From Hyphomonas neptunium ATCC 15444 (GTDB lineage Bacteria > Pseudomonadota > Alphaproteobacteria > Caulobacterales > Hyphomonadaceae), in assembly GCF_000013025.1 (NCBI RefSeq), contig NC_008358.1:930001-994000 (forward strand): a stretch of 64,000 nucleotides of DNA, written 5' to 3'. The notes beneath the pieces were generated by a model. That model was given only the letters and a program-made list of their open reading frames with translations. It was not told where the DNA came from and ran no database searches. Of the stretch, positions 29,169 to 63,574 are shown in pieces. Within the stretch, counting starts at the first letter, position 1, and each line of letters starts with the position of its first letter. The position numbers and the translations under genes are program-made.

Positions 29169-29301
29169 TCCGTTCAGAGAAAATGAATCATTTCGTCTGT
29201 GTTCCAACGCTTTTTTAATACCTGTTAATAAAGGTGCGTTAGGATTCACAATGTTAACCAAAGCCGCTACGACTAACTTAAGATGATTCGGGAGACGAGC
29301 G
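29169..29301 (+). promoter_or_regulatory. ctrA promoter region with three GANTC sites
   Basis: The 133-base gap before ctrA contains three GANTC motifs: GAATC at 29185-29189, GATTC at 29243-29247 and GATTC at 29285-29289. CcrM methylates GANTC in Caulobacter and controls ctrA P1. TTAA half-sites at 29215-29218, 29225-29228, 29254-29257 and 29278-29281 are candidate CtrA autoregulation sites, although the first pair has spacing N6 rather than the canonical N7. Confidence 0.65.
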
Positions 29302-30015
29302 ATGCGCGTCCTGCTAATTGAAGATGACCGGGCGCTGGCCCGCTCAATCGAGCTGATGCTCAAAGCCGCTGGCTTCAACGTCTACCTCACCGACCTCGGT
29401 GAAGACGGCGTTGATATCGGCAAAGTCTACGAGTTCGACATGATCCTCCTGGATCTGTCGCTGCCGGACATCACCGGTTTTGAGGTGCTCAAACAGCTCC
29501 GCATGAGCCGTGTGAACACGCCTGTCATGATCCTCTCGGGCAATCCGGACATCGAAGCGAAGGTGAAAACCCTTGGCTACGGCGCTGACGATTACCTCAC
29601 CAAGCCGTTCAACAAGGACGAGCTGATCGCCCGGATCACCGCCATTGTGCGCCGCTCCAAAGGCCATGCCGAGAGCGTGATCCGCACCGGCGACATCCTG
29701 GTGAACCTGGACGCAAAAACCGTCGAAGTCGACGGCGAGCGTGTCCACCTCACCGGCAAGGAATACGCCATGTTCGAGCTGCTTTCCCTGCGCAAGGGCA
29801 CGACGCTCACCAAGGAAATGTTCCTCAACCACCTCTATGGTGGCCTCGACGAACCCGAGCTGAAGATCATCGACGTCTTCATCTGTAAGCTGCGCAAAAA
29901 ACTGCAGCAGGCCACGGGCGGCAATCACTATATCGAAACCGTCTGGGGACGGGGCTATGTGCTGCGCGATCCGCGCCCATCCCAGAAATCCAGCGAGATC
30001 GAAGAAGCCGCCTGA
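29302..30015 (+). CDS. ctrA: Cell-cycle response regulator CtrA
   Basis: A 237-residue OmpR-type response regulator with extensive identity to Caulobacter CtrA as I remember it. The receiver domain has the acidic pair Glu7-Asp8/Asp9, phospho-acceptor Asp51 in ILLDLSLPD and TKPFNKDEL with the conserved Lys. The DNA-binding winged helix has [31 protein letters not shown]. The C-terminus is Glu-Glu-Ala-Ala, the kind of tail that ClpXP recognises. CtrA governs cell division, DNA replication and flagellar genes in Caulobacter. The preceding gap has three GANTC sites, and a strong terminator follows. Confidence 0.97.
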
Positions 30016-58302: not shown

Positions 58303-58761
58303 ATGGGAACCCACCTGCTGCCCATTCGTTCTACCTGCATGAGCAACGACCTGTTCCGCCTGATCTATGTAAGCACAGCCCGCCCCGGCCTGTCGGAGGA
58401 GGATATGTTGAGCATTCTCAACACGTCCCAGTCCAATAACGATGAGCGCCGGATCACCGGCTATCTGGTGCACAATGGCGACAACTTCATGCAGCTTCTT
58501 GAAGGGCCGCGCCCAGAAGTTGCCACAATCTTTGGCCGCATCCTTGAGGATGACCGCCATGGCGGCGTGGTGCGCATTCTGGCCGAGCAGGCCGACCGCC
58601 GGGTTTTTCCCGACTGGTCGATGAATTATTTCCGCGTCGACCAGGGCGGGGGCAATGGCTGGATGCTGGTGCGCCGGGACGACCCGATCGACAGCCTGAT
58701 GCCGGCGCATGTGCCGCGGGACCTGATCTACGCTTTCTCGAAATTCATCCGGCAGACCTGA
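58303..58761 (+). CDS. Stand-alone BLUF blue-light photoreceptor
   Basis: A 152-residue BLUF protein. All key residues are in register with AppA by an offset of one: Tyr22 in LIYVS, Asn46 in NNDERR, Gln64 in FMQLLEG, Trp105 and Met107 in DWSMNYF. It should bind FAD and change its Tyr-Gln hydrogen bonds in blue light. About 40 residues follow the domain, too short for an effector domain, so it likely acts by binding a partner. The start at 58303 has GGAGAAGC upstream; ATG 58339 is an alternative with no ribosome site. Confidence 0.94.
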   Translation: MGTHLLPIRSTCMSNDLFRLIYVSTARPGLSEEDMLSILNTSQSNNDERRITGYLVHNGDNFMQLLEGPRPEVATIFGRILEDDRHGGVVRILAEQADRRVFPDWSMNYFRVDQGGGNGWMLVRRDDPIDSLMPAHVPRDLIYAFSKFIRQT

Positions 58762-58840: not shown

Positions 58841-60838
58841 CTAGATGTCGAGCTCTTCGACGAAGGCGGCGTTTTCCTGGATGAAGCGGAAGCGGAGTTC
58901 GGCTTTTTTGCCCATCAGGGTGTTGATGAGGTCGGCGGGATTGATTTCGAGATCATCCATTGCCGCCGGGAGCGTGACGCGCGCCAGCGTGCGGCTGGAC
59001 GGGTTCATGGTGGTTTCTTTGAGCTGGGCGGGGTTCATTTCGCCCAGACCCTTGAAGCGCGTCATCTCGACCTTCTGGTTGCCCTTGAAGTGTTCCTTCA
59101 TGATCCGGGCCCGGTCGGCGTCATCCATGGCGTAATGGATGTTGCCCTTGTTCGAGAGTTTGAACAGGGGCGGCAGGGCGAGATAGAGCCGCCCGCTTTC
59201 GATCAGGCCGGGGGTGAGCCGGTAGAAGAAGGTGATGAGCAGGGCGGCGATGTGGGCCCCGTCGACGTCCGCATCGGTCATGATGATGATGCGCTCATAG
59301 CGCAGATCGTCGATGTTGAACTTGCGACCGAGTTCTGTGCCGAGGGCGAGGGAGAGGTCGGCCAGTTCCTGGTTGCCCATCAGCTTGTCGTCTGAAGCGC
59401 TTTCGACGTTGAGGATCTTGCCGCGCAGGGGGAGGATCGCCTGCGTCTCGCGGTTGCGGGCCTGTTTGGCGGAGCCGCCGGCCGAGTCGCCTTCGACGAG
59501 GAAGAGTTCGGTGCCTTCCGGGCCTTTAGCCGAGCAATCGGCGAGTTTGCCGGGGAGGCGGAGTTTCTTGGTGGCAGACTTTCGGCTGATTTCCTTGGCC
59601 TTGCGGCGCTTGGCGCGTTCATCGGCGCGGTCGATGGCCCAGCCGAGCAGCTTGTTTGCTTCCTTGGGGGAGCCGGCGAGCCAATGGTCGAAGTGGTCCC
59701 GTACCGCGTTTTCCACCAAGCGGAAGGCGTGGGTGGAGGAGAGCTTGTCCTTGGTCTGGCCGACGAATTCAGGGCCACGGATGAAGACCGAGAGGAGGAG
59801 GCCGGAATGGCCCATGACATCCTCGGCGGTGACTTCGGCGGCTTTCTTGTTGCCGGTCAGGTCTCCGAAATTGCGGATGCCCTTGGTGATGGCCGAGCGG
59901 AAGCCGGCTTCGTGGGTGCCGCCTTCGGGCGTCGGGATGGTGTTACAATAGGAGCGGGCGAAGCCGTCTGCCTCGCCAAAGCCGGCCTGGGTCCAGGCGA
60001 TGGCCCATTCGACCTTACCCTCGGCGCCCATGTCAACGAGGCCGGTGAAGGGGGTCTCGGTGATGGTGGACTTGTCGCCGAAGACTTCGGTGAGCTGGTC
60101 GGCCAGGCCATTGGGATAGGAGAGGACGGCTTCGGCGGGGACTTTGGAGTCCTCGGGAAGAAGCTCGGGATCGCAGGACCAGCGCACTTCGACGCCGCGG
60201 AAGAGGTAAGCCTTCGAGCGCGCCATCTGGAAGAGGCGCTGGGGGCGCCAGCGGAGCTTGTCGCCGAAGATCTGGAAGTCGGGCTTGAAGCGCACGGAGG
60301 TGCCGCGCCGGTTGGGCGCAGCGCCGACCTTCTGGAGCTTGCCGAGCGGCAGGCCGCGCGAGAAATCCTGGCGGTAGAGCGTGCGGTCGCGGGCGACTTC
60401 GACTTCGACGAGTTCAGACAGGGCGTTGACGACCGAGATGCCGACGCCGTGGAGGCCTCCGGCGGTGGAGTAGGCTTTGTCGGAGAATTTGCCGCCCGAA
60501 TGGAGCGTCGTCATGATGACTTCGAGCGCTGATTTCTTGGGGAATTTCGGGTGCGGGTCGATCGGGATGCCGCGGCCATTGTCGACCACGGTGAGGAAGC
60601 CGTCAGCGTCGAGCTTGATGTCGATGCGGTTGGCATAGCCGGCAACGGCTTCGTCCATGGCGTTGTCGAGGACTTCAGCGAAGAGGTGGTGCCAGGCGCG
60701 CTCATCGGTGCCGCCGATATACATGCCGGGGCGCTTGCGGACGGGCTCAAGGCCTTCGAGGACCTCGATGTCCTTGGCGGAATAGCCCGCTGTGCCCGCC
60801 AGCAGGTCGTCTTGCTTCATCTGCCGCGCTGAGGACAT
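58841..60838 (-). CDS. parE: DNA topoisomerase IV subunit B
   Basis: A 665-residue ParE. The GHKL ATPase has EVLDNAMDEAVAGYA and VVDNGRGIPIDPHP; TAGGLHGVGISVVNALS is the glycine-rich lid. The transducer and TOPRIM follow, with LFLVEGDSAGGSAKQARNR and MTDADVDGAHIAALL as metal-binding parts. The end has MKGLGEMNPAQL-like FKGLGEMNPAQLKETTM. It decatenates sister chromosomes with ParC. GGAG at a spacing of nine bases supports ATG 60838 over GTG 60856. A perfect CtrA-type box lies 73 bases upstream of this start. Confidence 0.96.
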   Translation of the reverse strand: MSSARQMKQDDLLAGTAGYSAKDIEVLEGLEPVRKRPGMYIGGTDERAWHHLFAEVLDNAMDEAVAGYANRIDIKLDADGFLTVVDNGRGIPIDPHPKFPKKSALEVIMTTLHSGGKFSDKAYSTAGGLHGVGISVVNALSELVEVEVARDRTLYRQDFSRGLPLGKLQKVGAAPNRRGTSVRFKPDFQIFGDKLRWRPQRLFQMARSKAYLFRGVEVRWSCDPELLPEDSKVPAEAVLSYPNGLADQLTEVFGDKSTITETPFTGLVDMGAEGKVEWAIAWTQAGFGEADGFARSYCNTIPTPEGGTHEAGFRSAITKGIRNFGDLTGNKKAAEVTAEDVMGHSGLLLSVFIRGPEFVGQTKDKLSSTHAFRLVENAVRDHFDHWLAGSPKEANKLLGWAIDRADERAKRRKAKEISRKSATKKLRLPGKLADCSAKGPEGTELFLVEGDSAGGSAKQARNRETQAILPLRGKILNVESASDDKLMGNQELADLSLALGTELGRKFNIDDLRYERIIIMTDADVDGAHIAALLITFFYRLTPGLIESGRLYLALPPLFKLSNKGNIHYAMDDADRARIMKEHFKGNQKVEMTRFKGLGEMNPAQLKETTMNPSSRTLARVTLPAAMDDLEINPADLINTLMGKKAELRFRFIQENAAFVEELDI

Positions 60839-60910
60839 GGACTGCTTCTCCGTCACTGAAAGCCGCCGATGACCCGGCGGAACTGTCGTGGCAGATAGGA
60901 GGTTAAAGCC

Positions 60911-60925
60911 TTAACGGCGCATTAA
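60911..60925 (-). promoter_or_regulatory. Perfect CtrA-type box upstream of parE
   Basis: TTAA (60911-60914), seven bases, TTAA (60922-60925), followed by CC, is an exact match to the Caulobacter CtrA consensus TTAA-N7-TTAA(C). It lies in the gap between the divergent parE and lon genes, 73 bases from the parE ATG and 228 bases from lon. A further TTAA is at 60903-60906. The rest of the 315-base gap has no gene I can support. Confidence 0.6.
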
Positions 60926-61033
60926 CCTTCGGCTTTCTGCCAGATAGCAGGACATCTGGCGGGGTTTGCCGGGTGGGGCAAGGGGGCCACGGTTGCGTAA
61001 GCGCAATTCACAGGATTGTTGAGCAGCGTTCAG

Positions 61034-61062
61034 CTTGAAGGGTTAAGCTGGGGTTTCCACAT
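61034..61062 (+). promoter_or_regulatory. Candidate heat-shock (sigma-32-like) promoter of lon
   Basis: CTTGAA at 61034-61039 followed after 17 bases by CCACAT (61057-61062) resembles a sigma-32 promoter. lon is a heat-shock gene in many bacteria. Distance to the ATG at 61154 is ~90 bases. The -10 match is partial, so this is tentative. Confidence 0.35.
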
Positions 61063-61153: not shown

Positions 61154-63574
61154 ATGCCAAAGACAAAAACAGTGCCGGTGTTGCCGCTTCGGGACATCGT
61201 TGTTTTTCCTGACATGGTCGCCCCCCTCTTTGTGGGCCGCGACAAGTCCGTCCGGGCGCTCGAGATGATCGACGAGTCCGACAATGAGATCATGCTGGTG
61301 GCCCAGAAGGATGCGGCCGTCGACAACCCTGTGACCAGTGACCTGCATGCGACGGGCACGCTGGCGACCATCCTGCAACTCTTGAAGCTGCCCGATGGCA
61401 CCGTGAAGGTGCTGGTCGAGGGCCGCTCGCGCGCGCGCCTGGTGGCGCTGCATGACCGGGCCGAGTATTTCGAGGCTGAGGTTGAGGCCATTCCGGAAGC
61501 CGATGCGTCGGGCGCTGATGTGCAGGCGCTGATGCGCGCCGTGCAGGAGCAGTTCGAGAACTATGTGAAGCTTAACCGCAAGATCCCGCCTGAGGCGGTG
61601 ACCACGATCAGCCAGCTGACTGATCCGGGCCGGCTTGCCGATCAGGTGGCGTCAAACCTCTCTGTGAAGCTTTCCGACAAGCAGGAATTGCTGGAGATGC
61701 CGGAGGTTAAAGACCGGCTGGAGAAGGTCTTCTCGCTGATGGAAGGCGAGATGGGCATGCTGCAGATGGAGCGGAAGATCAAAAACCGCGTCAAGCGGCA
61801 GATGGAGAAGACCCAGCGCGAATATTATCTCAACGAGCAGATGAAGGCGATCCAGCGCGAGCTGGGCGATTCTGGCGGCGAGGGCGGCGAGCGCGATGAG
61901 CTGGCCGAGCTTGACCAGAAGATTGCCGACACGCCGCTGAGCCAGGAAGCGCGCACCAAGGCCGAAGCCGAGATGAAGAAGCTGCGTCAGATGTCGCCGA
62001 TGTCGGCGGAATCGACGGTTGTGCGGAACTATCTCGACTGGATTCTGTCGCTGCCCTGGGGCAAGCGGAAGGACATCGAAACTGACCTTCTCAAAGCCGA
62101 GAAGCAGCTCGATGACGACCATTACGGCCTCGACAAGGTGAAAGAGCGTATTCTCGAATACCTCGCCGTGCAGAAGCGGACCGGGCGCCTCAAAGGCCCG
62201 ATCCTCTGTCTCGTCGGGCCTCCGGGCGTGGGTAAGACCTCGCTGGGCCGCTCGATTGCCGAAGCCACGGGACGCGACTTTGTGCGTGTGTCGCTGGGCG
62301 GCGTGCGCGATGAGAGCGAGATCCGCGGTCACCGCCGGACCTATATCGGCTCGATGCCGGGCCGGGTGATCCAGAGCCTGAAGAAGACCAAGAGCGGCAA
62401 CCCGCTGTTCCTGCTCGACGAGATCGACAAGATGGGCATGGACCATCGCGGCGATCCGGCTTCGGCGCTGCTCGAAGTGCTCGACCCTGAGCAGAACTCG
62501 ACGTTCAACGACCATTATCTGGAGGTCGACTATGACCTCTCCGACGTGATGTTCGTGACGACGGCGAACTCGCTCAACATGCCTCAGCCGCTGCTGGACC
62601 GGATGGAGATCATCCGTATCGCGGGCTACACCGAAGAAGAGAAGCTGGAGATCACCAAGCGCCACCTCATTCCGCAGGTGCGCGAGGATCATGGTCTCAG
62701 GGATGACGAATGGATCGTGACCGACGAGGCCATCCGCGACCTGATCCGCTACTATTCGCGTGAAGCGGGCGTGCGGAGCCTGAAGCGTGAAGTTTCGCGC
62801 CTTGCCCGCAAGGCTGTGCGTGAGATTGCAACGGGCGAGCATACGAGCCTGACCATCGATTCGGACAATCTCGCCAAATATGCGGGCGTCCGGAAGCATC
62901 GCTACGGCCTTGCCGACGAAACCGATCAGGTGGGCGCTGTCACCGGCCTTGCCTGGACGGAAGTGGGCGGCGACCTGCTGACCATCGAGGCGGTGAAAAT
63001 GCCCGGCCGGGGCGCGATGAAGGTGACGGGTAACCTGCGCGATGTGATGAAGGAGTCGATTTCGGCGGCCAGCTCGCTCGTGCGGGCCCGCTCTGTGGAC
63101 CTCGGCATCAAGCCGACCGTGTTCAACACGACCGACATCCACGTGCACGTGCCAGATGGCGCAACGCCCAAGGATGGCCCGTCTGCGGGCGCGGCCATGA
63201 CCACGGCCATCGTTTCGCTGCTGACCGGCATTCCGGTGAACCGCGAAGTGGCGATGACAGGCGAGATATCCTTGCGTGGACGGGTGCTGCCGATTGGCGG
63301 CCTCAAGGAGAAACTGCTCGCGGCCCTGCGCGGCGGCATCAAGACGGTGCTGATCCCGAAGGAAAACGAGAAGGACCTCGATGAGATCCCCGATAACGTC
63401 AAAACCGGCATGAAGATCATTCCGGTGTCGGACATCCAGGAAGTGCTGAAACTGGCGCTGACCGGGCCTCTGACGGCGATCGAATGGTCTGAAGCCGATG
63501 AGGCGCGCCTGCAGGCGAGCCTGGGCGGCGGACCGGCCCCGGCAACGGACGGCGATGCGGTGCGCACGCACTGA
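61154..63574 (+). CDS. lon: ATP-dependent protease Lon
   Basis: An 806-residue Lon protease. The N-terminal substrate domain starts [23 protein letters not shown]. The AAA part has Walker [10 protein letters not shown] at residues 355-363 and Walker [12 protein letters not shown]. The protease domain has catalytic Ser677 in [10 protein letters not shown] and Lys720 in [14 protein letters not shown], 43 residues apart as in E. coli. Lon degrades misfolded and regulatory proteins; in Caulobacter it destroys CcrM, which links it to the GANTC sites near ctrA. GGAGG at 61141 fixes the start. A clear terminator follows. Confidence 0.97.

Follow-up and report, generated by a model that had tools for sequence, protein, structure and literature searches.

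The parE promoter of Hyphomonas neptunium carries an exact CtrA box which, judging from its conservation in related genomes, is likely to be a genuine CtrA binding site, which would activate parE when the level of phosphorylated CtrA (CtrA~P) is high. In the window, i.e., the whole stretch of 64,000 nucleotides that was analyzed, the box reads TTAACGGCGCATTAACC (60911-60927, plus strand; GGTTAATGCGCCGTTAA on the parE strand) and matches TTAA-N7-TTAACC without deviation. The motif derived by ChIP-seq for CtrA of this organism is TTAA-N7-TTAAC (PMC7200025). The most likely target, parE, encodes subunit B of DNA topoisomerase IV (58841-60838, minus strand; TIGR01055, 767 bits at a cut-off of 723). 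Both the exact match and its distance of 73 bases to the parE ATG, from position 60838 to the start of the box at 60911, had been given in the initial annotation and were confirmed; the range of 60911-60925 named there spans TTAA-N7-TTAA, but leaves out the final CC at 60926-60927. Divergently to parE lies lon (61154-63574, plus strand; PRK10787/TIGR00763 Lon), which had not been mentioned there and is a possible secondary target. The two genes are separated by an intergenic region of 315 bases containing the box, with the start of lon 228 bases away from it. The presumed regulator is encoded in the same window at a distance of 31 kb by ctrA (29302-29976, plus strand; NF045991 CtrA, 405.8 bits at a cut-off of 350), located at ~0.96 Mb of the genome, the place where HNE_0944 is listed in the literature. 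Directly downstream of parE, a gene for a BLUF blue-light sensor protein (PF04940) was found at 58303-58761. A literature search yielded no paper naming parE as a CtrA target, and the main text of the study on CtrA of H. neptunium mentions neither parE nor lon nor a topoisomerase (PMC7200025).

Searches of the 64-kb window for TTAA-N7-TTAA and TTAA-N7-TTAACC returned one match each, both at this site, compared to 0.02 and 0.01 matches, respectively, expected from dinucleotide shuffling. The rarity initially ascribed to the box thus holds for the window, but it is weaker across the whole genome, for which pattern searches were set against reversed-pattern controls. In the 3,705,021 bases of the single contig, TTAA-N7-TTAA occurs 16 times vs. 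13 times for the control, and TTAA-N7-TTAACC five times vs. once in these 3.7 Mb. Summed over 21 genomes of the genus, 119 matches to TTAA-N7-TTAACC stand against 62 in the control; individual Hyphomonas genomes of this set of 21 contain only 4-11 of them, the parE box being one of these in most. One perfect match within a single genome is only mildly unusual. Since the excess in a single genome is that mild, rarity cannot carry a functional claim, whereas conservation can.

Conservation was assessed by scanning the regions upstream of 140 parE genes of the family and the order for exact TTAA-N7-TTAA, and 80 named loci were considered besides; the genera g1 and g3 were judged from the named loci to be Hyphomonas and Henriciella. 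The initial annotation had regarded its proposal as refuted if the box were not conserved in relatives; the scan revealed that it is kept within its clade, being present in its exact form before parE in 34 of 39 other Hyphomonas. The same applies to 15 of 25 Henriciella and to the sister genera g2 (2/2), g6 (1/1), and g9 (3/3), with a distance between box and start of the parE match of 63 to 143 bases. An exact box was found before parE neither in the 22 genomes of five other Hyphomonadaceae genera nor in the 48 genomes representing four further families of the order, and none of the 20 genomes of family f2, taken as Caulobacteraceae on account of named Phenylobacterium and Caulobacter loci, possesses it. 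The five Hyphomonas lacking the exact form comprise four with one changed base and one with a six-base spacer. When the regions of the genus were aligned on the box, the TTAA letters were conserved at 91-100% and the preceding GG at 100% (distinct rows), with most of the seven spacer columns at 41-62%. In a tree of 65 ParE sequences, all bearers of the box fall into one clade, located beside the box-less genus g7, and the state of the box changes seven times over these 65 genes. These seven changes fit one gain followed by about six later losses, with the direction taken from the outgroups and not from the parsimony count. As far as the scanned genomes indicate, the box is confined to a single clade of Hyphomonadaceae, and the pattern of conserved and drifting columns indicates that it is under selection as DNA. 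It is dispensable nevertheless, as 10 of the 25 Henriciella and 5 of the 39 Hyphomonas do without the exact form. Several Henriciella appear to have lost it (L045, L046, L052, L056, L078, L277, and L278), and most of these loci have retained a GANTC 47 to 75 bases ahead of the parE match.

The genes found upstream of a box-bearing parE are of five kinds, encoding Lon, an FMN oxidoreductase, a uracil-DNA glycosylase, a GGDEF-EAL protein, and a GNAT acetyltransferase. The divergent lon is restricted to the H. neptunium group, in which the oxidoreductase gene is gone and the box is kept. Instead of lon, a divergent gene for an FMN-dependent oxidoreductase belonging to the old-yellow-enzyme family (PF00724) is present in the other Hyphomonas, in part of Henriciella, in g2, and in g6. 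Other Henriciella have the glycosylase gene and one Hyphomonas has the GGDEF-EAL gene, both directed towards parE, and in g9 the acetyltransferase gene is situated upstream. Since the glycosylase and GGDEF-EAL genes are co-directional with parE, the only promoter there is that of parE. Conversely, genus g7 possesses the divergent oxidoreductase gene and lacks the box. The comparison of these arrangements indicates that the box belongs to parE and not to whichever gene adjoins.

In the genomes bearing the oxidoreductase gene, the box is placed within its first codons, which read ATT AAY NNN NNN TTA ACC (Ile-Asn-x-x-Leu-Thr). This position inside the start of the divergent old-yellow-enzyme gene is illustrated by L039 (upstream of position 1501) and by comparable loci of many Hyphomonas and Henriciella. 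In 37 of 38 loci, the leucine of the box is encoded by TTA, although this codon is used for 3 of 1307 leucines in the parE genes of the same species and for 15 of 881 in the remainder of the oxidoreductase fragment. Similarly, the isoleucine codon is ATT in 37 of the 38 loci, compared to roughly one quarter to one third elsewhere. All 38 loci are kin and the counts are accordingly not independent; still, the oxidoreductases encoded in g2, g3, and g6 are only 61-66% identical to the Hyphomonas query, which implies enough time for synonymous drift. Protein-coding constraint was considered as the cause of the conservation and was ruled out by this codon test.

Two further promoters of the genus served as controls. 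Upstream of mreB, reported to be regulated directly by CtrA in H. neptunium (PMC7200025), an exact box with a drifting spacer was found in 20 of 20 Hyphomonas genomes (immediately upstream of the gene in L013, at 1501-1515), while the upstream regions of gyrB, used as negative control, contained a box in 0 of 19 genomes. Conservation in place, the drifting spacer, the changes of neighbor, the codon constraint, and these control promoters together lend strong comparative support to the proposal that parE has a functional CtrA box. In the fetched region of parC, no CtrA box was found, neither exact nor with one mismatch. Another perfect TTAA-N7-TTAACC of the H. neptunium genome is situated between panC and a mipZ-like gene of the ParA/MinD family, and mipZ is also among the Caulobacter promoters with CtrA motifs (PMC4287350). 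In addition, the window contains a single TTAA-N6-TTAA (TTAATACCTGTTAA, 29215-29228), 74-87 bases before the start of ctrA, which probably represents the site of CtrA autoregulation that has been reported for H. neptunium.

A tentative -10 element of parE, TATCTG (60892-60897, minus strand), was read from the sequence and is partly kept in the H. neptunium group; a sigma-70 consensus scan upstream of parE found no promoter. If TATCTG is the -10 element, transcription would start near 60886, and the 5′ base of the box would be located at about -39, as it is in ctrA P2 of Caulobacter. In Caulobacter, full CtrA boxes with their 5′ base near -35/-39 mediate activation at the predivisional stage, and half boxes over the -10 element mediate repression (PMC4287350). 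The geometry therefore suggests, with moderate confidence, activation of parE by CtrA~P. A 'TATC' before parE was also considered as a shared -10 element of the oxidoreductase-bearing species and was dropped, because part of this stretch comprises the ribosome-binding site and the start of the divergent gene. In the proposed mechanism, CtrA~P would bind both TTAA half-sites as a dimer and, with the box covering the -35 region of the promoter that has TATCTG as its -10 element, would activate transcription of parE. In that case, the supply of ParE, and hence of topoisomerase IV, would depend on the CckA-ChpT-CtrA pathway. As the level of CtrA is constant over the H. neptunium cycle (PMC7200025), any timing would come from its phosphorylation.

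Other explanations of the box differ considerably in their probability. A chance match to a short AT-rich motif, to which the near-equality of TTAA-N7-TTAA and its reversed control in the genome could point, has a negligible probability: base composition predicts only 0.0016 matches in the parE-lon intergenic region, and neither conservation with a drifting spacer nor the bias in synonymous codons is expected from chance. For the clade, this explanation was rejected on the conservation results. It is also improbable that the box is a real CtrA site of the divergent gene only, i.e., of lon in H. neptunium and of the FMN oxidoreductase elsewhere, with parE being a bystander. The TTAACC end is directed to these genes and the box lies within the first oxidoreductase codons in many species, but it is retained beside all five kinds of neighbor, two of which are co-directional with parE and thus have no promoter there, and it is missing in g7 despite the divergent oxidoreductase.

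Joint control of parE and lon in the H. neptunium group, parE being the ancestral target and lon a target gained by rearrangement, deserves somewhat more credit, though it is still unlikely. The intergenic region is common to both genes, and one full CtrA box can be shared by two promoters, as is the case for P2 and P3 of ctrA in Caulobacter (PMC4287350). The distance from the box to the start of lon speaks against it, as does CTTGAA-N17-CCACAT (61034-61062), a sequence resembling a sigma-32 heat-shock promoter which was seen in only a few close relatives and which, being nearer to lon, would provide this gene with a promoter of its own. Slightly less probable again is a site that is bound yet transcriptionally silent, with constant parE expression and the box acting as a reservoir for CtrA or having a small effect. 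The 222 sites bound by CtrA in H. neptunium compared to a direct regulon of only 94 genes (PMC7200025) would be in line with such a site, and so would the viability of several Henriciella without the box. However, the exact letters have long been kept at a constant place, even by means of rare codons, which implies an effect on fitness. Taken together, these considerations make it very probable that the box is a true CtrA site which acts on parE and was gained once in this clade.

As such, it resembles known promoters with full CtrA sites, such as ctrA P2 of Caulobacter and mreB of H. neptunium, in its TTAA-N7-TTAAC motif, in a predicted position compatible with the -35 region, and in the presence of ctrA in the same genome. 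With mreB it also shares the conservation footprint; in contrast to mreB, the TTAACC end of the parE box is directed away from the gene. It further differs from full-site promoters in that its target is a topoisomerase IV subunit and that, in many relatives, it forms part of the codons of a gene in divergent orientation. The CcrM and GcrA regulons of Brevundimonas include parE (PMC7987155), so that a master cell-cycle regulator would act on parE transcription in both cases, as predicted here for CtrA. Yet control by GcrA/CcrM uses GANTC methylation, whereas no GANTC occurs within 298 bases upstream of the H. neptunium parE ATG, the nearest one being located at 299 and adjoining the start of lon; gyrB of H. 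neptunium has GANTC at -63 and -164. Family f2, the presumed Caulobacteraceae, is devoid of the parE box throughout the genomes scanned. In keeping with this box-less Caulobacter family, a cckA mutation raising CtrA~P leaves the activity of the Caulobacter parE promoter unchanged (PMC6169604). The CckA-ChpT-CtrA route might be used instead of, or in addition to, the methylation route of Brevundimonas parE. NstA of Caulobacter ties topoisomerase IV activity to the cell cycle as well, a connection that is predicted here, but does so as a protein inhibitor of ParC and not via transcription of parE (PMC4470285).

It is conceivable, if rather doubtful, that one clade of Hyphomonadaceae moved parE from GcrA/CcrM to CtrA control by means of a box inside the first codons of a neighboring gene. 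If true, such a clade-wide move would make the supply of topoisomerase IV depend on the CckA-CtrA state of the mother cell and the bud, and it might be connected with the reported decatenation of H. neptunium chromosomes in the mother cell and not at the division site (PMC6650430). The embedded box also illustrates that a regulatory site can arise and stay in the coding start of a neighbor through synonymous codon choice. Control of decatenation by the cell cycle via the parE box, as put forward in the initial annotation, appears to be a sound hypothesis. Topoisomerase IV is essential for the separation of finished sister chromosomes. CtrA-controlled parE would place this step under the regulator of replication start, division, and motility, and a box gained once and kept in a clade with stalked budding bacteria would represent an example of rewiring in the core cell-cycle network.
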